This document shows positions 26,788 to 38,666 of a stretch of DNA of 38,832 nucleotides, piece by piece (position 1 is the stretch's first letter; each line of letters opens with the position of its first letter). The stretch spans positions 1 through 38,832 of the forward strand of contig WFNZ01000018.1 of the NCBI GenBank assembly GCA_015488335.1, read 5' to 3'. The position numbers and the translations under genes are program-made. The notes beneath the pieces were generated by a model. That model saw nothing but the letters and a program-made list of their open reading frames with translations. It was not told the origin of the DNA and did no database searches. Origin of the DNA: Thermovibrio sp. Lineage in GTDB: Bacteria > Aquificota > Aquificia > Desulfurobacteriales > Desulfurobacteriaceae.

Positions 26788-28488
26788 GTGAGAAAACTTA
26801 GACTGCTTTTCTTACTTTTCTTCTTTCTTCTTCCTGCTTGTGGAGGGGGTGGCAGTGGAGGTGGTAGTAACTCCTCAGGTGGTGTATCAATTTCCGGCCA
26901 GTTTCTCTCAAGTTATGTAGAAGGACTGAAAGTCTGTACAGACAGCGGTTACTGTACGTATACAGATGCAGAAGGTAAGTTCCAGTTAAAGGTTTCAACT
27001 CTTCCAGTTCACGTCACCTTTTTTGTAAATAACCTTGAACTGGGAGATTATACCCTCAGGGAAAACAACGAAACAGTAACTCCTTTTAAATTATCGTCCA
27101 GCTCCCAGATTGGAGATATTCTTGCCAGGTTTATCCACGGGATGGCCGGAGATACAGAGGGAACTTTTAAAACGCTTAACTTCTCCGGTATTAAGGTTTT
27201 AAACTCTAATCTCCCTTCAGGTGAGTCCCTCACCGATGCCGTTCAAAACGGAGAAGACGTTAGGGTAGAGCTCCAGTCCAACGGAAAAACTTACTCTGTA
27301 GAGTACCACCCGGAAGATCGGTCTGTAGAGCTGTGCACAGCCGATAGCTGTCAGAAAGTTAACTACAGACAGTGGCTCATCCTGGTCTACATGGCTGCTG
27401 ATAACAGTTTAAACTCATTTGCATCGGAAGACCTGAAGGAGATGGCCTCAGTCAAGTTTACCCCTCAGGTAAAATTAGTTGTCCTCACAGACTTTCAAAC
27501 GGGAACGGATCAGATTTCAGAGAGCTCCGATACAACGGGGGATCTGACCTCTCAACCTCTGAATTACGAAGTAGATTCAGGCGACTATCAGACTCTTAAG
27601 AACTTTGTAGAACAATACTATAACTTATACCCTGCAAAGAACGTTGCCTTAATCCTCTGGGATCACGGAGATGGATGGAGAAGCAGATCAGCAGCCATTG
27701 ACGACACAGACTCCTCCCTTCTCCTTATGTTCCAGCTTAGAAAAGTCCTGTCAGACCTTAATTCAGAAGGGATAAACTTCAGTCTGATTGGCTTTGACGA
27801 ATGTTTAATGGGCATGGAAGAGGTCCTCTACGACATTAAAGATTTTGCTGATTACTTTGTGGCCTCAGAGAACGAAGAGCCTGGAACTGGCTGGGATTAT
27901 ACGAGAGTTTTTTCATACCTCGTTTCCAACCCCAATTCAACTCCTCAGCAGTTTGGAAAGGCCATAGTTGATGCCTATAAAGAGGCCTATTCCTCTCTTA
28001 GCACCGATTCCACCCTTACGCTTACCCTCTTCTCTAAAGATAACGTTGAGAGAATTGCCGGCGACCTGAACAGGTTCTACTACGATCTAAATTCAGACAC
28101 ATTCCCCGACTTCCAGTCTGCAAGGAGCTCCTCCCAGCAGGTTGTCTGCTCAGAAAACAATCAGAACTGTTCTTACTACTACGTTGATCTCTACTCCTTT
28201 GCATCTCAGCTTTCAGACAAATATCCTGAAGCTGCCGACATTGTTAACGTAATAGACTCCTTATACAAAACGGTTATACCTGGCAGCGACGGTAAAGACC
28301 TTCACGGTATCTCCGTCTACTTCCCTGCCAACCCAGATGAAGCAAATCAATCTGGATACGGCTGTTATACTGCCGAGACTCCCGTAACCTGCACCTTTGG
28401 AAATAAGCAGGTTAGCGGCTACTACAATCCCTTTGCTGCTGGAACCTACTGGGACAACTTCCTAACTGAATACTTATCTCTGGAGTAG
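26788..28488 (+). CDS. Clostripain-like (C11) cysteine peptidase lipoprotein
   Basis: Exported lipid-anchored protein of 566 residues. A signal peptide ends in the lipobox LPAC (C18), followed by a Gly/Ser-rich tether (19-33). Residues about 34-190 are beta-rich and resemble a carboxypeptidase-regulatory-like domain. The C11 domain from about 195 has ILVYMAADNSLN, LILWDHGDGW with H293 and IGFDECLMGMEEV with C339, the catalytic pair. Cysteines come in close pairs (50/56, 183/188, 454/461, 526/535), probably disulfides. The start is GTG 26788, five bases after GGAGG. Clostripain relatives cut after Arg or Lys; the target here is unknown. The next gene, four bases on, is also a lipoprotein. Confidence 0.85.
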   Translation: MRKLRLLFLLFFFLLPACGGGGSGGGSNSSGGVSISGQFLSSYVEGLKVCTDSGYCTYTDAEGKFQLKVSTLPVHVTFFVNNLELGDYTLRENNETVTPFKLSSSSQIGDILARFIHGMAGDTEGTFKTLNFSGIKVLNSNLPSGESLTDAVQNGEDVRVELQSNGKTYSVEYHPEDRSVELCTADSCQKVNYRQWLILVYMAADNSLNSFASEDLKEMASVKFTPQVKLVVLTDFQTGTDQISESSDTTGDLTSQPLNYEVDSGDYQTLKNFVEQYYNLYPAKNVALILWDHGDGWRSRSAAIDDTDSSLLLMFQLRKVLSDLNSEGINFSLIGFDECLMGMEEVLYDIKDFADYFVASENEEPGTGWDYTRVFSYLVSNPNSTPQQFGKAIVDAYKEAYSSLSTDSTLTLTLFSKDNVERIAGDLNRFYYDLNSDTFPDFQSARSSSQQVVCSENNQNCSYYYVDLYSFASQLSDKYPEAADIVNVIDSLYKTVIPGSDGKDLHGISVYFPANPDEANQSGYGCYTAETPVTCTFGNKQVSGYYNPFAAGTYWDNFLTEYLSLE

Positions 28489-30621: not shown

Positions 30622-31710
30622 ATGCAGAGTAACGTAACAATGCTTCAGCTTCTTAAAGAGGTTATTGAGAGGAAGGGATCCGACCTTCACATTGCTCCCG
30701 GTAGTCCTCCTCGTATAAGGATAATGGGAGACCTTGTTCCTTTAAACGAATACGGTATCCTTACTCCGGCAGATACAAAACGCTTAATCTACAGCGTTCT
30801 TACAGACCTCCAGAAGAAAAGGCTTGAAGAGGACTGGGAGCTTGACTTCTCCTTTGGAATAAAAGGGGTTGCCCGCTTCAGGGGAAATGCCTACTTCCAG
30901 AGGCAGTCTTTAGCTGCTGCTTTCAGGCTCATTCCGTTTGACATTCCCAGCTTTGACAAACTCGGCTTGCCAAAAGTTATAGAAACCTTTGCCCACAAAG
31001 ATAAAGGTCTTGTTCTTGTAACAGGTCCAACTGGTTCCGGTAAGTCAACAACCCTTGCTTCTCTCCTCAAAATTATCAACGATACCTATCCCTATCACAT
31101 AATAACAATTGAAGATCCAATAGAGTTTGTTTACGAGCACAGCAAGTCTCTGGTTACTCAGAGAGAACTGGGAAACGATACAAAGAGTTTTGCCAGAGCT
31201 CTCCGTTCAGCCCTCCGTGAAGATCCAGACGTTATCCTCGTTGGTGAGATGAGGGACCCGGAAACCATAGAAGCAGCCCTTACAGCAGCTGAAACTGGCC
31301 ATCTTGTCTTCTCAACACTCCACACAAACTCAACGATTGAAACGATAAACCGTATAGTAGATGTATTTCCAGCTGAAAAGCAGGCTCAGATAAGAACACA
31401 GCTCTCCTTCGTTCTTGTTGGAACAGTAGCTCAGAAGCTCTTAAAGAGGAAAGACGGTAAGGGCAGGGTAGCAGCTGTAGAGGTCTTTATACCAACACCT
31501 GCTATAAGGAACCTTATCAGAGAGAATAAACTCCATCAGATATATTCAATGATGCAGACAAGTCAGGCTGCAACAGGAATGATTACTCTGAACCAGCATC
31601 TGGCAGAGCTCTACACAAGTGGCCTTATAGATATTGAAGAGGCTAAAAGAGTATCGCCAGACCATAAAGAGCTTGAATCCCTGATAAAATCACTTTCCAA
31701 AGGTTTCTAA
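30622..31710 (+). CDS. pilT: Type IV pilus retraction ATPase PilT
   Basis: Cytoplasmic hexameric motor that pulls pili back, driving twitching motility and DNA uptake. The 362 residues contain the PAS-like N-terminal domain (GSDLHIAPGSPPRIRIMGDL), Walker A GPTGSGKST at 135-143, the Asp box IITIEDPIEFVY, Walker B VILVGEMRD near 204-212 and the His box TGHLVFSTLHTNS. The PilT-specific AIRNLIRENK at 294-303 separates it from PilB/GspE. The ribosome site GGGGG lies five bases before the ATG. It shares one base with pilC (TAATG). No pilin, pilB or pilMNOPQ genes are in the window. Confidence 0.96.
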   Translation: MQSNVTMLQLLKEVIERKGSDLHIAPGSPPRIRIMGDLVPLNEYGILTPADTKRLIYSVLTDLQKKRLEEDWELDFSFGIKGVARFRGNAYFQRQSLAAAFRLIPFDIPSFDKLGLPKVIETFAHKDKGLVLVTGPTGSGKSTTLASLLKIINDTYPYHIITIEDPIEFVYEHSKSLVTQRELGNDTKSFARALRSALREDPDVILVGEMRDPETIEAALTAAETGHLVFSTLHTNSTIETINRIVDVFPAEKQAQIRTQLSFVLVGTVAQKLLKRKDGKGRVAAVEVFIPTPAIRNLIRENKLHQIYSMMQTSQAATGMITLNQHLAELYTSGLIDIEEAKRVSPDHKELESLIKSLSKGF

Positions 31711-32927
31711 TGGCTGTTTACAGATACGTTGGCAGAGACGTTCTGAACAGGAGAAGGAGAGGACTTGTAGAAGCAGACAGTATTGATGCTGCGAGGGAGC
31801 TCCTCTTAAGCCGTGGAGTTGTTGTAGTAGAAAAGCTCTCTGAAGACAAATCCCTGTTTAAAAAGAGCTTTGACGTTCCCTTCCTCAACCGTATAACTCT
31901 CCGCGACCTTCTAATCTTCACCCGTCAGCTCTACGCCATGATCCACGCAGGAATCCCCTTGGTCCAGGCCTTGAGAGTCATAAAAGATCAAGTACCCAAC
32001 AAAAGACTTAAACAGATAATAGACGATGTGGCAACTTACATAGAGGAAGGGGGTAAATTTTCAACGGCCCTCTCAAAATACAGAGATGTCTTTGGAGACC
32101 TATACATTTCAATGGTAAGAGCTGCTGAAGAAGCTGGAACCCTTGAAGAAACCCTAAAACGCCTTGCCGAGTATTTAGAAAAGATAGAAAAGCTCAGAGG
32201 AAAGGTAAAGAGTGCTCTTTTCTACCCTGTATTTGTCCTTATAACGGCAACAGTTATAGTAGCTGGAATAATGATATTCGTAATTCCAACCTTCCAGCAG
32301 CTATACGCCGACCTTGGCGGTTCTTTACCAGCTCTAACCCAAATGGTTATAAACGCCAGCAACTGGCTCAGAGACTACATCGGCTGGTTTATCCTTGCAA
32401 TCTTTCTCTTTGTTGTCCTCTTTGTTCAGCTCCGTCGCGTTTCAAAACGGTTTAAATACCTGACAGACCTTGCACTTCTCAAAATCCCCGTTTTCGGAGA
32501 GCTCGTCCTCAAATCCAGCATTGCCAACTTCTCAAGAACATTCTCCTCCATGCTTTCCAGCGGAATAAACATACTTGAAGCCCTAAGAATATCCGCTGAA
32601 ACTGCAAACAACGAAGTGATAAGAGAGGCAATAGAAAAAGTTAGAGAACAGGTAGAAAAGGGAGTCAGTTTCTCATTAGCAATGTCAAGAATCTCAATCT
32701 TTCCTCCTATGGTAGTAAACATGGCCGCCATCGGTGAACAGGCCGGTAACTTAGACGAAATGATGTCAAAAGTTGCCGATTTTTACGAAGAAGAAGTAGA
32801 CCGCACCGTAGACGGCCTCACTTCCCTCATAGAACCCTTGATGATCGTCTTCATCGGCTCTATAATTGGCGTAATCATAATTGCATTGTATCTACCAATA
32901 TTTAAAATTGGTGAGCTTATAAAATAA
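31710..32927 (+). CDS. pilC: Type IV pilus inner-membrane platform protein PilC/GspF
   Basis: Polytopic inner-membrane protein on which the pilus motors act. The 405-residue protein has two repeated T2SSF domains, with FTRQLYAMIHAGIPLVQALR near 70-89 and the second copy around FSRTFSSMLSSGINILEALR near 270-289. Transmembrane segments follow at about 170-195, 220-240 and 375-398. Pairing with pilT marks it as the pilus protein rather than the secretion-system GspF. It starts within the pilT stop (TAATG). It is the last gene with the GC-richer composition of the left part of the window; base composition changes sharply in the 23 bases after it. Confidence 0.95.
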   Translation: MAVYRYVGRDVLNRRRRGLVEADSIDAARELLLSRGVVVVEKLSEDKSLFKKSFDVPFLNRITLRDLLIFTRQLYAMIHAGIPLVQALRVIKDQVPNKRLKQIIDDVATYIEEGGKFSTALSKYRDVFGDLYISMVRAAEEAGTLEETLKRLAEYLEKIEKLRGKVKSALFYPVFVLITATVIVAGIMIFVIPTFQQLYADLGGSLPALTQMVINASNWLRDYIGWFILAIFLFVVLFVQLRRVSKRFKYLTDLALLKIPVFGELVLKSSIANFSRTFSSMLSSGINILEALRISAETANNEVIREAIEKVREQVEKGVSFSLAMSRISIFPPMVVNMAAIGEQAGNLDEMMSKVADFYEEEVDRTVDGLTSLIEPLMIVFIGSIIGVIIIALYLPIFKIGELIK

Positions 32928-32950
32928 ATAAGTGTTTTGGAGAACTTCTT

Positions 32951-33757
32951 ATGTTTGATTGTAGGTCAGTTGTAGATATAGCGCGTAAAGCAGGTCAAGA
33001 AATAATGAAGATTTATAACTCAAGCTATGAAATTTCTTTAAAAAAGGACAATTCACCGCTTACACTTGCAGATAAACGTTCTCATGAAATAATAATTAAA
33101 GGACTTCAGGAAATATCTGATCTCCCTGTTTTGAGTGAAGAGGGAAGTAGTATTCCATATAATAAAAGAAAAAAGTGGGATGCTTTTTGGCTTGTTGATC
33201 CTCTTGATGGTACGAAGGAGTTTATAAAAAAGAACGGCGAGTTCACGGTAAATATTGCTCTTATAAAAGAAAATCAACCAGTTTTTGGTGTTGTTTATGC
33301 TCCAGCAAAAGGTATTCTTTATTACGGAGGCGTTGATTTTGGGGCTTTTTGTATTTCAGATGGAAAAGAAGATGCTATTGATGGGAACTCCCCTACAAAA
33401 TTTACGGTTGTAACGAGTAAATCACATATGAACAATGAAACCAGAGCTTTCATAGATAGGTTGAAGGAAATAACTGGTAATAAAGAAATAGAGACCATAT
33501 CTGTAGGCTCATCGCTAAAAATTTGCCTTGTTGCAGAAGGAAAGGCAACTCTGTATCCACGTTTAGGCCCTACTATGGAATGGGATACAGCTGCGGCCCA
33601 CGCCATTCTTAAAGGAGCAGGAGGGAAAGTAATTTCTTACGATTCTTTTAATAAATTAAATACTCTAAAGGAACTGTGTGAAAAGGAAGAACTGAAGTAC
33701 AATAAAGAGAATTTGCTTAACCCATTCTTTATAGCACTTTCTTCTGATGTTTGCTGA
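32951..33757 (+). CDS. cysQ: 3'(2'),5'-bisphosphate nucleotidase CysQ
   Basis: Removes the 3' phosphate from PAP, the by-product left when PAPS gives up its sulfate. The 268-residue protein is an inositol-monophosphatase-fold enzyme with the Li+-sensitive metal site: E63/E64 in LSEEGS, D83 and D86 in DPLDGTKEF, and D212 in WDTAAAHAI. The KEF ending and NIALI fit CysQ rather than SuhB. GGAG lies eight bases before the ATG. It is the first gene of the AT-rich block and overlaps the transporter by 11 bases. With cysC, sat and a sulfotransferase downstream, clearing PAP is the obvious job. Confidence 0.92.
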   Translation: MFDCRSVVDIARKAGQEIMKIYNSSYEISLKKDNSPLTLADKRSHEIIIKGLQEISDLPVLSEEGSSIPYNKRKKWDAFWLVDPLDGTKEFIKKNGEFTVNIALIKENQPVFGVVYAPAKGILYYGGVDFGAFCISDGKEDAIDGNSPTKFTVVTSKSHMNNETRAFIDRLKEITGNKEIETISVGSSLKICLVAEGKATLYPRLGPTMEWDTAAAHAILKGAGGKVISYDSFNKLNTLKELCEKEELKYNKENLLNPFFIALSSDVC

Positions 33758-35519
33758 GATAGTAGTTTCTCTGATTATTCTATTTACAGTTATAGCTCTT
33801 TATCGGGAGCTTTTTCATCCCGTTATTATCTTCCTTTTTAGTGTTTCTATTCTTCTTTTTTTGAGGATCCTATCCCCTAAAGATGTGCTGTTCGGATTTT
33901 CAAATGAGCAAATTATAGATGTTGTTCTTCTCATTCTCATAAGTAAAGTGCTACAATCAACTGGAGTTCTTAGTTTTTTTATATCTAAAATCTTAAAGAA
34001 AGAGCTTGATTACAAAGAATTTCTATCAAGAATGATGATTTTTGTTTCGGGGATTTCTACAGTTATCAACAATACTCCTGTTGTTGCTATGGTTTTACCT
34101 TATGTTAACGACTGGTGCCATAAAAAGAAAATCTCACCTTCAAAATTACTGATACCTCTATCTTATGCTTCTATATTTGGAGGAATGTCAACTCTTATAG
34201 GAACTTCAACTAACCTTGTTGTTAACGCTCTTACTGTTGAATCTGGTTTAAAACCTTTCTCTTTCTTTGACTTTAGCTATGTAGGTATTCCTATAATGCT
34301 TTTTGGCTTTTTCTACCTGTATTTTATTGGACATAAGCTTCTTCCGGAAAGGCCAGATATAGTAGAATCATTTTTATCTCGTAGGAGGGACTACTTAGTA
34401 GAAACTGTTTTGAAATCTAACTCTCCTCTTGTGGGTAAAACTATAAAACAGGCAAACTTACGTAATCTTGAGGGACTCTATCTGGCAGAGATAGTTAGAA
34501 AGAATATAAGAATTTATCCTGTTTCTCCGTCCGAAGTACTTCAGGAAGGGGATATTCTAATCTTTGTAGGAGATACCCGTGCTGTAGTTAGCCTTATACA
34601 GAACAACTACGGTTTATCTTTACCAAAGTTTTGTTTACTTGATAGTGAATATAAAGAACTTGTTGAGGTTGTTATCTCAAATAATTCAAGTTTGATTAAC
34701 AAAAAGATCAGAGATACTAACTTCAGAGCTAAATTTGATGCAGCTGTTCTTGCTGTACATCGTAATGGAGAGCGTTTGAAGGGAAAAATCGGAGAAATTG
34801 TTCTTAAACCGGGAGATTTATTATTACTGATAGTCGGAAAGGATTTCTGGAAAAAAGTGGAAGATATTACTGATTTTTACATAGTTTCGCGTATTGATGA
34901 AGTGCCTAATGAAAGAGAATTTTCTAAAGGCAAACTTCTATTTTTATTTTTTCTTTTGGCTATTTTACTTTCAGCTCTTAAATTAGTATCACTTTTTACT
35001 GCTCTTATTTTTGTTTTGCTTTTATCTGTTTTATTAAAGACAACAGATTATTCAAGACTTAAATCTAAACTTGACATCCATTTTTTTCTTATTGCTGTTT
35101 TTTCCCTTGCTCTCGGTAAAGCACTGATAAAAACAGGTTTGGCGAAAACTTTTGCAAGTGCTATTGATTCCTTGCTTGGTGGCTTTGGAACGTTTGGATA
35201 TATATTGGGAATTTACCTTGTTACCAATATACTTACAGAGTTTGTTAATAATGTTGCTGCGGCCTCTATAGCATTTCCTATAGCTCTGGCTTCTGCAAGT
35301 GTTTCGGGTATTGAACCTAAATACCTTATACTTGCTGTCGCTTACGGAGCTTCAGCCAGTTTTGTTACTCCTATCGGTTATCAGACTAATCTAATGGTGT
35401 TTGCTGCGGGAAACTATAAGTTTAAAGATTTTTTAAGAATTGGCTTGCCTCTATCAGTTTTAGTGTGTATATTATGTACAACAATTTTAACTTTTCTTGC
35501 TAAAAAGGGAGGGATATGA
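33747..35519 (+). CDS. SLC13/DASS-type transporter with two internal RCK_C domains (probable sulfate uptake)
   Basis: 590 residues: an N-terminal membrane half (about 1-200), two cytoplasmic RCK_C/TrkA_C domains (about 212-285 and 303-372) and a C-terminal membrane half (about 395-590). The halves carry the paired substrate motifs of the ion-transporter superfamily: VINNTPVVAM at 107-115 with GTSTNLVVN at 152-160, and FVNNVAAASIAFP with TPIGYQTNLMVF near the end. This architecture is seen in bacterial transporters of sulfate and other anions. Sitting between cysQ and cysC-sat, sulfate is the likely cargo, energised by Na+ or H+; this is inferred from neighbours. The start at ATG 33747 has no strong ribosome site and is reached by an 11-base overlap with cysQ. 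It overlaps cysC as ATGA. Confidence 0.85.
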   Translation: MFAEIVVSLIILFTVIALYRELFHPVIIFLFSVSILLFLRILSPKDVLFGFSNEQIIDVVLLILISKVLQSTGVLSFFISKILKKELDYKEFLSRMMIFVSGISTVINNTPVVAMVLPYVNDWCHKKKISPSKLLIPLSYASIFGGMSTLIGTSTNLVVNALTVESGLKPFSFFDFSYVGIPIMLFGFFYLYFIGHKLLPERPDIVESFLSRRRDYLVETVLKSNSPLVGKTIKQANLRNLEGLYLAEIVRKNIRIYPVSPSEVLQEGDILIFVGDTRAVVSLIQNNYGLSLPKFCLLDSEYKELVEVVISNNSSLINKKIRDTNFRAKFDAAVLAVHRNGERLKGKIGEIVLKPGDLLLLIVGKDFWKKVEDITDFYIVSRIDEVPNEREFSKGKLLFLFFLLAILLSALKLVSLFTALIFVLLLSVLLKTTDYSRLKSKLDIHFFLIAVFSLALGKALIKTGLAKTFASAIDSLLGGFGTFGYILGIYLVTNILTEFVNNVAAASIAFPIALASASVSGIEPKYLILAVAYGASASFVTPIGYQTNLMVFAAGNYKFKDFLRIGLPLSVLVCILCTTILTFLAKKGGI

Positions 35520-36124
35520 ATCAGCAGAAATTTATAGTTCCGTTTAAGGGCCGGATTTCGCGAAAAGATAGAGAAAGATTAAAAGGTCATAAATCTTTTA
35601 TTCTGTGGTTTACTGGTTTGTCAGGTTCTGGGAAGTCAACTCTCTCACACCGAGTAGAAGAACTGCTATATCAACAAGGTATTCATACTTATATCTTGGA
35701 CGGAGATAACATTAGATCGGGTCTGAATAAAGATTTAGGATTTTCTGAAAAAGATAGAAAGGAAAATATCAGACGAATAGGTGAAGTAGCAAAGCTTTTT
35801 GTAGATGCAGGAGTTGTTGTACTTTCTGCTTTTATTTCTCCTTACAAAAAAGATAGAGAATTTGTCAGAAATCTTGTTCCAGAAGGGGACTTCATAGAAA
35901 TTTATGTTAAGTGTCCTCTTGAAGTCTGCGAGCAAAGGGATCCTAAAGGACTATATAAGAAAGCCAGACAGGGAATAATAAAAAACTTTACCGGTATAGA
36001 TGACCCTTATGAAGAGCCGGAAAATCCAGAAATAGTTGTTGAGACTGATAAGATGGGAATTGACGAATGTGCCAGTAAAATTATCAGCTATTTGAAAGAA
36101 AGAGGACTTTTGGAGGTAGATTAG
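35516..36124 (+). CDS. cysC: Adenylylsulfate (APS) kinase
   Basis: Phosphorylates APS to PAPS, the universal sulfate donor. The 202-residue product has the P-loop GLSGSGKST at 34-42, the substrate segment LDGDNIRSGLNKDLGFSE, KENIRRIGEVAKLF, and FISPYKKDRE with the conserved serine. IYVKCPLEVCEQRDPKGLYK, FTGIDDPYEEPENPE and the C-terminal region are complete. GGGAGG stands just before the ATG, which overlaps the transporter stop (ATGA). It is a stand-alone kinase, not fused to sat as in some Aquificales. It directly abuts sat. Confidence 0.95.
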   Translation: MNQQKFIVPFKGRISRKDRERLKGHKSFILWFTGLSGSGKSTLSHRVEELLYQQGIHTYILDGDNIRSGLNKDLGFSEKDRKENIRRIGEVAKLFVDAGVVVLSAFISPYKKDREFVRNLVPEGDFIEIYVKCPLEVCEQRDPKGLYKKARQGIIKNFTGIDDPYEEPENPEIVVETDKMGIDECASKIISYLKERGLLEVD

Positions 36125-37276
36125 ATGATAAAACCTCATGGTGGAGACCTTGTTAATAGATTAGCTTCCGAAGAAGAAAAAAAGGAACTAATGGAAAAAG
36201 TAGAAACACTCCCAAAAATAGTTGCAGGTAACAGATATGTTGGTCACTGTGAAATGATAGCTATAGGAGGGTACTCTCCTCTCAGAGGTTTTATGACTAA
36301 AGAAGAAGCTGAGTCGGTTATTAAGGATGTTCACCTACCCAACGGTCTTTTGTGGTCAATACCGATTGTTCTTCCTGTAAGTGAAGAGCTCTGGAAAAGT
36401 ATTAAGGTAGGGGATGAAGTAGCGATCTATGATGAAAATAATAGGCCTATTGCGATTATTGTAGTGGAAGATAAATATACTTTAGATCTTGATTTTTACT
36501 GTGAAAACGTTTTTAAAACGACAGATGAAAATCATCCAGGAGTTGCTTTTGTCAAAAGTGCTGGGAACTTCTTTGTTGGAGGGGAGCTCCTCCGTCTCAT
36601 CAACCGCCCTATTCGTGAAGGTATCCCTGAACGTTACTACCAAGACCCTTTTCAGGTAAGAAAAGTGATAGAGGAAAAAGGCTGGAGAAGAGTTGTTGCA
36701 TTCCAGACCAGAAATCCTATACATAGAGCTCATGAGTACATTATTAAATGTGCTTTAGAAACAATGGATGGTGCCCTGATACATCCCCTTGTAGGAGAAA
36801 CAAAGAAAGATGATATTCCTGCACCTGTAAGGATGAAGTGCTATGAAGTTCTAATTGATAACTACTTCAACAAAAACAGAGTTCACCTCAGTGTTCTACC
36901 TGCTCCTATGCATTACGCCGGTCCTCGTGAAGCGGTTCACCACATGATAATGCGTAAAAACTATGGATGCACCCACATGATAATAGGTAGAGACCATGCG
37001 GGTGTAGGAAACTATTACGGCACTTACGAAGCCCAGGAATTTGTAGAACAGTTCATAGATGAGTTGGAAATTATGCCTTTAAAGTTTGAACACGCTTTCT
37101 ACTGTACAAAGTGTGAAAACATGGCAACATCAAAAACCTGTCCTCATCCAAAAGAGTTTCATATTCACCTGAGCGGAACAAAAGTTAGATCCATGCTCAG
37201 GGAAGGAAAACGTCCTCCTAAAGAATTTTCAAGACCAGAGGTGGCTGATATTTTAATTGAGTGGGCAACTTCCTAA
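36125..37276 (+). CDS. sat: Sulfate adenylyltransferase (ATP sulfurylase), homomeric type
   Basis: Makes APS from sulfate and ATP. The 383 residues show the active-site motifs QTRNPIHRAHEY at 194-205 and GRDHAGVGNYYG from 288, and a Zn-binding cluster C327, C330, C339 plus a nearby histidine, as in prokaryotic single-chain enzymes. There is no C-terminal APS-kinase-like domain. The ATG follows the cysC stop directly, with GGAGG eight bases upstream. Composition is mixed: the 5' part is AT-rich (30% G+C at line 36481), but around 36570-36700 it resembles the left part of the window (48% at 36601) and contains a GGAGCTCC. Single-chain Sat also serves sulfate reducers, but no aprAB or cysH is in view, and cysC beside it points to PAPS. 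Confidence 0.95.
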   Translation: MIKPHGGDLVNRLASEEEKKELMEKVETLPKIVAGNRYVGHCEMIAIGGYSPLRGFMTKEEAESVIKDVHLPNGLLWSIPIVLPVSEELWKSIKVGDEVAIYDENNRPIAIIVVEDKYTLDLDFYCENVFKTTDENHPGVAFVKSAGNFFVGGELLRLINRPIREGIPERYYQDPFQVRKVIEEKGWRRVVAFQTRNPIHRAHEYIIKCALETMDGALIHPLVGETKKDDIPAPVRMKCYEVLIDNYFNKNRVHLSVLPAPMHYAGPREAVHHMIMRKNYGCTHMIIGRDHAGVGNYYGTYEAQEFVEQFIDELEIMPLKFEHAFYCTKCENMATSKTCPHPKEFHIHLSGTKVRSMLREGKRPPKEFSRPEVADILIEWATS

Positions 37277-37298: not shown

Positions 37299-38666
37299 AT
37301 GATTGCAGCTTTTAAAGAGAGGCTTCAAAGTAAGATTGCTGAAGATAGACATTTTGCTGAACTCATAAAGGGTTCAGGAATTGCTTTTGTCTTGAGGATT
37401 GTTGGAATAGTTGCAGGGTATATTTTTACTTTACTTGTTACAAGAACTCTCGGAGCTAAAGCTTGGGGAACTTTTGCCCTTTGTCTCGTTGTGCTTCAGA
37501 TAGCTTCTGTTATTGGAAGGCTTGGAATGGATACAGCTCTTTTAAGATTCACTGCCGAATACACAGCAAAGGGTGATATAAATACTTTAAAAGAAATTTA
37601 CAAAAAGGCTTTAACTCTTGTTGTTCCGTTTTCAATATTAGTTGCGATTTCAGTTTACTTTTTATCACCAATTTTAGCTAATAAGGTTTTCCATAAACCA
37701 TATCTGACTAATTACTTTCATATAGTATCCTTCATAGTTGTTCCGTTTGTTTTGTTATGGATCCACTCTGAAAGTATTAGAGGCTTAAAGAAAATAAAGG
37801 AGTACATGCTTTTACAGCAGTCAGGAATTTTCCTTATAGCTGTAGTTTTATTTCTAATAGGAACTCCGTTTGTAAAATCTAATTTTTTACCTATACTTTC
37901 TTATGGTGTATCTATTTTTGCTCTTGCTACTGGATCTATCTATCTCTGGCGTAAATACCTTACCAACCTTTTTATAAACTTTAAAACTTCTTCACTTTCT
38001 ACACTCTCTTATCAATTCTTACTCTCCATCTCTATTCCTATGCTCCTATCAAGTTCCTTGAGTTTGATTATGGGGTGGACAGATACTATAATGCTTGGAA
38101 TGTTTAGAAGTACTCAGGAAGTTGGAGTTTATAACGTTGCACTTAGAGTTTCCATGATAACAAGCATTACGCTGATGGCAATAAATACTATTGCAGCTCC
38201 AAAATTTGCTGAATTTTGGGGGAAGGGAGATATAAAAGGATTAGCGAAAGTTGCGCAGCAGTCAACAAAGCTAATTTTTTGGAGTTCTTTTCCTATGCTA
38301 CTACTATTTTTATTTTTTTCAAGGCCTATTCTTGGTATGTTTGGAGCAGAATTTCAGGCAGGATCCATAGTGCTAATGATTTTATCTTTTGGACAACTGT
38401 TTCACTCGATTTCGGGAAATAATGGAACCTTGCTTTATATGACAAATAGGCACTTTATTGACCAATATATAAATGTGTTCTGTTTAGTTTTGAATATATT
38501 TGTAAATTCTATTTTAATTCCTTTATATGGTATTGTTGGAGCGGCTATAGCAACTTTTACTACTGTTGTAATTAAAAACTTAGTTATTAATTTTTATATC
38601 AAAAGAGAGTTTAATTTTATGATGCTATATATCCCAACGATAAATATGAGGAGGAGAAATGGATAA
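37299..38666 (+). CDS. Polysaccharide flippase (Wzx/MATE-fold, oligosaccharide exporter)
   Basis: Membrane protein of 455 residues with about 12-14 hydrophobic helices, of the kind that flips lipid-linked oligosaccharides outward. The N-terminal pattern (KGSGIAFVLRIVG, GYIFTLLVTRTLGAKAWGTF, DTALLRFTAEY) and the middle MGWTDTIMLGMFRSTQEVGVY are typical of the Polysacc_synt family. The C-terminal NRHFIDQYINVFCLVLNI and GIVGAAIATFTTVV also fit. I prefer ATG 37299 (GGAAG nine bases before) to a TTG at 37257 that would overlap sat by 20 bases. It overlaps the sulfotransferase start by 8 bases. The cargo is unknown; by context a glycan that is sulfated on either side of the membrane. Confidence 0.87.
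   Translation: MIAAFKERLQSKIAEDRHFAELIKGSGIAFVLRIVGIVAGYIFTLLVTRTLGAKAWGTFALCLVVLQIASVIGRLGMDTALLRFTAEYTAKGDINTLKEIYKKALTLVVPFSILVAISVYFLSPILANKVFHKPYLTNYFHIVSFIVVPFVLLWIHSESIRGLKKIKEYMLLQQSGIFLIAVVLFLIGTPFVKSNFLPILSYGVSIFALATGSIYLWRKYLTNLFINFKTSSLSTLSYQFLLSISIPMLLSSSLSLIMGWTDTIMLGMFRSTQEVGVYNVALRVSMITSITLMAINTIAAPKFAEFWGKGDIKGLAKVAQQSTKLIFWSSFPMLLLFLFFSRPILGMFGAEFQAGSIVLMILSFGQLFHSISGNNGTLLYMTNRHFIDQYINVFCLVLNIFVNSILIPLYGIVGAAIATFTTVVIKNLVINFYIKREFNFMMLYIPTINMRRRNG

Follow-up and report, generated by a model that had tools for sequence, protein, structure and literature searches.

Sulfated capsules have been assigned to polysaccharide gene clusters in two bacteria. The cluster of Cobetia marina KMM 1449 contains genes for PAPS synthesis (cysN/C and cysD), cysQ, a sulfate permease and a sulfotransferase (PMC11766843). 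That of Vibrio sp. KMM 8419 carries second copies of the PAPS genes as well as sulfotransferases within a glycan cluster, together with signs of gene transfer; the authors consider PAPS genes and sulfotransferases occurring together to be a hallmark of sulfated polysaccharide synthesis (PMC11641403). A related arrangement, cysD-cysN-SLC13 permease-cysC amid glycosyltransferases and epimerases, is found on the E. coli plasmid pKTa005_1 (NZ_CP147085.1). The OBC3 O-antigen cluster of Pseudomonas protegens CHA0 offers a parallel of another kind: in the part of the source cited here, it is a low-GC cluster (51% versus 63.4% for the genome) at a conserved insertion site that can hold alternative clusters, with mobile elements, and low GC is given as general for such O-antigen clusters (PMC10715155).

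We analyzed a locus in an Aquificota genome, G000 (1.65 Mb in 70 contigs). The window comprises contig C18 in full (38832 bases). In it, the pilus genes pilT and pilC are followed on the same strand by cysQ, an SLC13-type transporter gene, cysC, sat, a wzx-like flippase gene and the start of a probable sulfotransferase gene (Table 1). This content suggests a locus of known kind, with the same gene logic as the Cobetia and Vibrio sulfated capsule clusters. However, Cobetia has the two-subunit CysDN and ABC (Kps) export, and Vibrio has the cysNDC type, ABC export and another chromosome context, whereas the locus described here has single-chain Sat and Wzx. The SLC13 permease of pKTa005_1 is 38% identical to the window's transporter, but no cysQ or single-chain Sat is listed for that plasmid-borne cluster, which has an integrase and insertion sequences nearby. 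Unlike the locus in the window, OBC3 has no sulfation module in the part of its description cited here (PMC10715155). A search of the open-access literature found no description of sulfotransferases or sulfated glycans in thermophilic chemolithoautotrophs or Aquificota. We consider it likely that a surface-glycan locus, variable and probably sulfated, has its left edge at the pilC/cysQ boundary in this Desulfurobacteriaceae-type chemolithoautotroph.

Table 1. Features of the window around the pilC/cysQ boundary
Feature	Position	Strand	Basis
pilT, PilT/PilU-family retraction ATPase, native left flank	30622..31710	+	NCBIfam TIGR01420 above cut-off; syntenic with pilC in relatives
pilC, inner-membrane pilus protein, native left flank	31710..32927	+	TIGR02120/NF052607 matches; holds start of GC step
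GC change-point interval (best 32860)	32816..32896		Two-segment likelihood fit; interval within 2 log-units
pilC-cysQ gap, 23 bp, left edge of inserted locus	32928..32950		Sequence; junction compared with empty-site relatives
cysQ, 3'(2'),5'-bisphosphate nucleotidase (PAP recycling)	32951..33757	+	TIGR01331, 279 bits (cut-off 228.8)
SLC13/CitMHS-type transporter, two TrkA_C domains	33747..35519	+	PF03600, PF02080 (x2), PF00939
cysC, APS kinase	35516..36124	+	TIGR00455, 290 bits (cut-off 138.7); PDB APS kinases
sat, ATP sulfurylase	36125..37276	+	NF003166, 536 bits (cut-off 387); PDB relatives
wzx-like polysaccharide flippase, first exchangeable cargo gene	37299..38666	+	PF01943, PF01554, PF13440
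Probable PAPS-dependent sulfotransferase, N-terminal 58 residues, cut by contig end	38659..38832	+	PKSGNTW loop; PDB matches

Composition step and insertion site

The earlier note on this DNA had described an abrupt change of composition between pilC and cysQ, with gene order and strand continuing unbroken across it. Both observations were confirmed. A two-segment fit separated 47.1% G+C on the left from 35.0% on the right, with a log-likelihood gain of 150.6 compared to no more than 30.4 in any of 100 block-permuted controls. GC3 was 44.7% in pilC, dropped to 25.4% in cysQ and remained at 24-32% in every gene to the right. Measured against a 249-kb sample of the genome (mean GC 45.0%), the right segment (5.9 kb, 35.2% GC) lay below all 83 same-size genome segments (minimum 39.9%). 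Its composition-corrected tetranucleotide profile, with a correlation of 0.724, ranked 1-2 of 83 for atypicality, whereas the left part reached correlations of 0.88-0.91. The size of the step had been overstated, however. Instead of a contrast of 58% with 27-32%, the local change was from about 43-44% to 36%, because uppP, pilT and pilC are already at 43-44%. The edge does lie near the 23-bp gap where the note had placed it, but the step starts 30-110 bases earlier, inside pilC, because the final ~75 bases of that gene are AT-rich. This tail is AT-rich in the window and in most relatives, including G018, a species with an empty site (35% GC versus 38% over the whole gene).

The palindrome GAGCTC, said to nearly disappear across the boundary, occurred 82 times in the 32.9 kb on the left and 3 times in the 5.9 kb on the right, all inside sat, which has 40% GC and is the sole right-hand gene with such sites. 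The drop was significant when uncorrected (P = 0.0003). At the lower GC, 6.7 copies would be expected (P = 0.10). Thus, the claim stands as a count but is weak as independent evidence, and the loss is mostly explained by composition. Given the composition correction and the 5 GAGCTC copies in the 4.3-kb module of the relative G001, the loss of the palindrome was rejected as separate evidence of foreign DNA.

Note that GAGCTC is present at 10x its base-composition expectation in the 249-kb sample. The palindrome GGAGCTCC is highly iterated in that sample (window positions 1-32927 and L162-L179): its 220 copies are 90x the expectation, a situation resembling that of HIP1 in cyanobacteria. Among the stretches compared, GGAGCTCC was also enriched in G001, G004, G005, G008, G010, G018, G020 and G007, more weakly in G013, and was absent from G006, G009, G011, G012, G016, G019 and the other families. 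It splits one genus, being enriched in G007 and absent from G012.

The regions downstream of pilC were compared among same-family relatives, in 19 of 21 of which pilC was found. G002 and G003 did not contribute at this locus, owing to a contig end and to the kinase described below not being found. At the empty site of G018, pilC lies 2 bp from a convergent gene of ~650 amino acids, identified by Pfam in the G001 copy as a PAS/HAMP histidine kinase. Two short genes of native GC separate pilC from this kinase in G008 and G020. The interval expands to 10.8 kb in G001 and 17.8 kb in G005, where it is filled with low-GC glycan genes: a bacterial sugar transferase, a glycosyltransferase and Wzy in G001, and Wzx with several glycosyltransferases in G005. 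This cargo has 31-35% GC in both, and the right flanks 46%. Outside G000, G001 and G005, the module cysQ-SLC13 transporter-cysC-sat was absent from the site after pilC in every family member examined. The synteny comparison, which the earlier note had called for, thus identifies the region right of pilC as an insert. The note's proposal of an island placed at an operon end holds insofar as G018 has an empty site and the same flanks enclose differing low-GC cargo; a recent foreign arrival at the pilC/cysQ junction is not supported, as discussed below.

In G000 the kinase gene is on another contig, C20; between it and the contig end lie genes for a protein of unknown family, for TnpB and for an epimerase. 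The right end of the G005 island is 88.6% identical in DNA to this epimerase region. Because of the kinase and this match, the G000 island very likely spans from 32.95 kb in the window to C20 across the contig gap, its middle being unassembled. The TnpB (OrfB_IS605) gene, at positions 4430-6270 of L186 (contig C20), breaks into DNA that is otherwise collinear with G005, close to the island's right end, and looks like a secondary insertion.

Three other candidates found no support. Insertion by an integrase at a tRNA gene was not supported, the window having no tRNA and no convincing flanking repeats. A phage origin was not supported, as no relative of the APS kinase was confirmed among viral contigs. 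Promoter-like sites were fewer than in shuffled sequence (13 found, 20.9 expected), which argues against a dedicated promoter at the boundary; one of them, at 32838-32866, is pilC coding sequence. The 23-bp gap and the lack of a promoter excess would allow read-through from pilTC.

Age of the module and the border of exchange

In G001, as in the window, pilC is directly followed by cysQ, the SLC13 transporter gene, cysC and sat. The G001 DNA aligns with the window without interruption from uppP to the end of sat (80% identity). There is almost no step in composition at the G001 junction (GC/GC3 of 39/35 in pilC and 40/33 in cysQ). G005 retains a broken cysQ and remnants of two further genes, namely residues 208-382 of sat and residues 1-23 of a wzx of the window type. 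Since the module is intact in G001 and in pieces in G005, it was present before G000, G001 and G005 split. The wzx gene, which is absent from G001, was probably also present. Between G000 and G001, identity at four-fold sites was 48-63% for the module genes and 34-45% for uppP, pilT and pilC (44-45% for the pilus genes). With module and flanks diverged to the same order, shared descent is the simplest reading. The earlier note had held that relatives with the same genes after pilC, at the same composition, would indicate an old native locus. Such genes exist, intact in G001 and as remnants in G005, but the module is more AT-rich in G000. The AT-richness right of the boundary comes from the exchanged glycan genes and from the sulfation module, whose G000 copy is more AT-rich than its G001 copy.

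Single-gene phylogenies, proposed in the earlier note as a check on acquisition, placed the window's cysC and sat within the own-family clade (99/97 and 98/99). Its cysQ and transporter leaned towards a second family, f3, but own-family monophyly was not rejected (AU p = 0.48 and 0.060, respectively). The trees suggest a mosaic origin, with cysQ and the transporter set apart from cysC and sat; by these p values it is not significant.

These data bear on the possibility that all six genes arrived as one block, a recent foreign island inserted cleanly into the pilC-cysQ gap. Such an arrival would account for the strong contrast in GC, codons and tetranucleotides, for the empty site in relatives and for the TnpB gene on the C20 side. 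However, the same four genes occupy the site in G001, with remnants in G005; the G001 junction lacks the GC step; module and flanks diverged alike; cysC and sat belong to the window's own-family clade; and no tRNA, integrase or convincing flanking repeats were seen in the window. We therefore regard a recent island as unlikely, and for the cysQ-sat part the comparison with G001 and G005 largely refutes it.

The alignment of the window with G001 stops at the end of sat, with no DNA in common beyond it. The border at which exchange is active thus lies downstream of sat, ~4.3 kb past the pilC/cysQ edge. In G013 and G020, which belong to another genus, the module is located elsewhere in the genome at 42-53% GC, and GC falls to 31-32% at wzx. 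The two wzx genes are 93% identical in DNA (86% at four-fold sites), compared to 73% (32%) for pilC. This pattern indicates a recent transfer of glycan cargo beside a module that diverged normally. The AT-rich transferred stretch is contained in L188 (G013) and L189 (G020), from about 12.1 kb of L188. A composition step can therefore mislead: the visible edge is the old left border, and the working exchange border follows sat.

Function of the locus

The preferred reading, a variable and probably sulfated surface-glycan locus, combines enzymes identified from sequence with a pathway deduced from established biochemistry. CysC and Sat, the enzymes of PAPS synthesis, scored above curated cut-offs. 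The transporter is a probable sulfate importer, judging from its context. Genes for glycan assembly and export accompany the module, namely Wzx in the window and the epimerase at the C20 end, with the sugar transferase, glycosyltransferase and Wzy in G001. In the proposed pathway, the SLC13 transporter would import sulfate, from which Sat and CysC would make PAPS. The sulfotransferase would place sulfate on sugars of the glycan, Wzx would flip the sulfated glycan across the membrane, and CysQ would clear the by-product PAP.

The assignment of the terminal sulfotransferase is based on a fragment. All 13 of its PDB matches were sulfotransferases (best E 0.0087). Pfam gave no match for the 58 residues, and BLAST gave none against the sulfotransferases of relatives, the fragment being too short and diverged. 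In G004 and G039 this position holds clear sulfotransferases. The only candidate in G001 is a gene with weak resemblance to sulfotransferases (E 0.002).

Among 61 genomes, a full APS kinase was found in 21. Sulfotransferase matches occurred in 12, all within those 21, an association with P = 1.7e-7 when relatedness among genomes is ignored. Four carriers of cysC (G007, G012, G021 and G022) had no sulfotransferase match at the thresholds used. Note that G022 has two tandem APS-kinase-like genes before sat (L195, 8772-10266), which share 41% and 59% identity with cysC of the window. In contrast, the APS kinase showed no association with strong matches to PAPS/APS reductase (P = 1.0).

Alternatively, the module could be an assimilatory sulfate-reduction operon, in which a reductase uses the PAPS from Sat and CysC for cysteine synthesis and the glycan neighbours are coincidental. 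The transporter, Sat and CysC would indeed be the first steps of that pathway, and the sulfate adenylyl transferase and kinase of Thermovibrio ammonificans have been labelled as sulfur assimilation (PMC5441870). However, neither G000 nor G001 has a PAPS/APS reductase match (PF01507) above the cut-off, and G013, which has the whole module, has no match of any strength. The APS kinase goes with sulfotransferases rather than reductases, and the module adjoins wzx also in G004, G013, G020, G025 and G039. An assimilatory role is thus very unlikely.

One further gene was observed in the left part of the window. Upstream of thiL and uppP, positions 26788-28488 encode a 566-residue protein with a clostripain-like domain (partial TIGR02806 match, below cut-off), a relative of which is present in the same place in G004.

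Spread of the module in Aquificota

The transporter was found in 24 of 136 genomes of the phylum, in three families. Two of these, f1 and f3, apparently correspond to Desulfurobacteriaceae and Hydrogenothermaceae, respectively. Between them PilT is 56-60% identical and Sat 74-78%. The sat genes of G004, a congener of G000, and of G039, a member of f3, are 90% identical. A tree holding G000, G001 and G004 together for sat was rejected (AU p = 1e-47), as was own-family monophyly of the transporter including G004 (p = 0.00017). Together, the 90% match and the tree tests indicate that the module crossed families at least once, in G004. The G004 module (L187) is of a second type, occupies another site and is closest to f3.

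It is extremely unlikely that the locus is simply old and native, its low GC due only to relaxed codon selection or local AT mutation without transfer: common descent in G000, G001 and G005 and the low GC described as typical of glycan loci generally (in the cited part of PMC10715155) would fit, but the site lacks the module in every other family member examined, the congener G004 has a different module type at another site that groups with another family, and cargo was transferred recently in G013/G020; the empty sites and the cross-family similarity refute it as a general account. Relaxed codon selection or local AT mutation could partly account for the difference in GC that separates G000 from G001.

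Returning to the variable glycan locus, we tentatively propose that cysQ-SLC13-cysC-sat may be a portable sulfation module, passing from one Aquificota family to another separately from the glycan genes that it serves, and that it might give thermophilic chemolithoautotrophs interchangeable sulfated surface glycans. The locus points to sulfated surface glycans in Aquificota; if this is true, the annotation of APS kinase-linked genes in the group would change.
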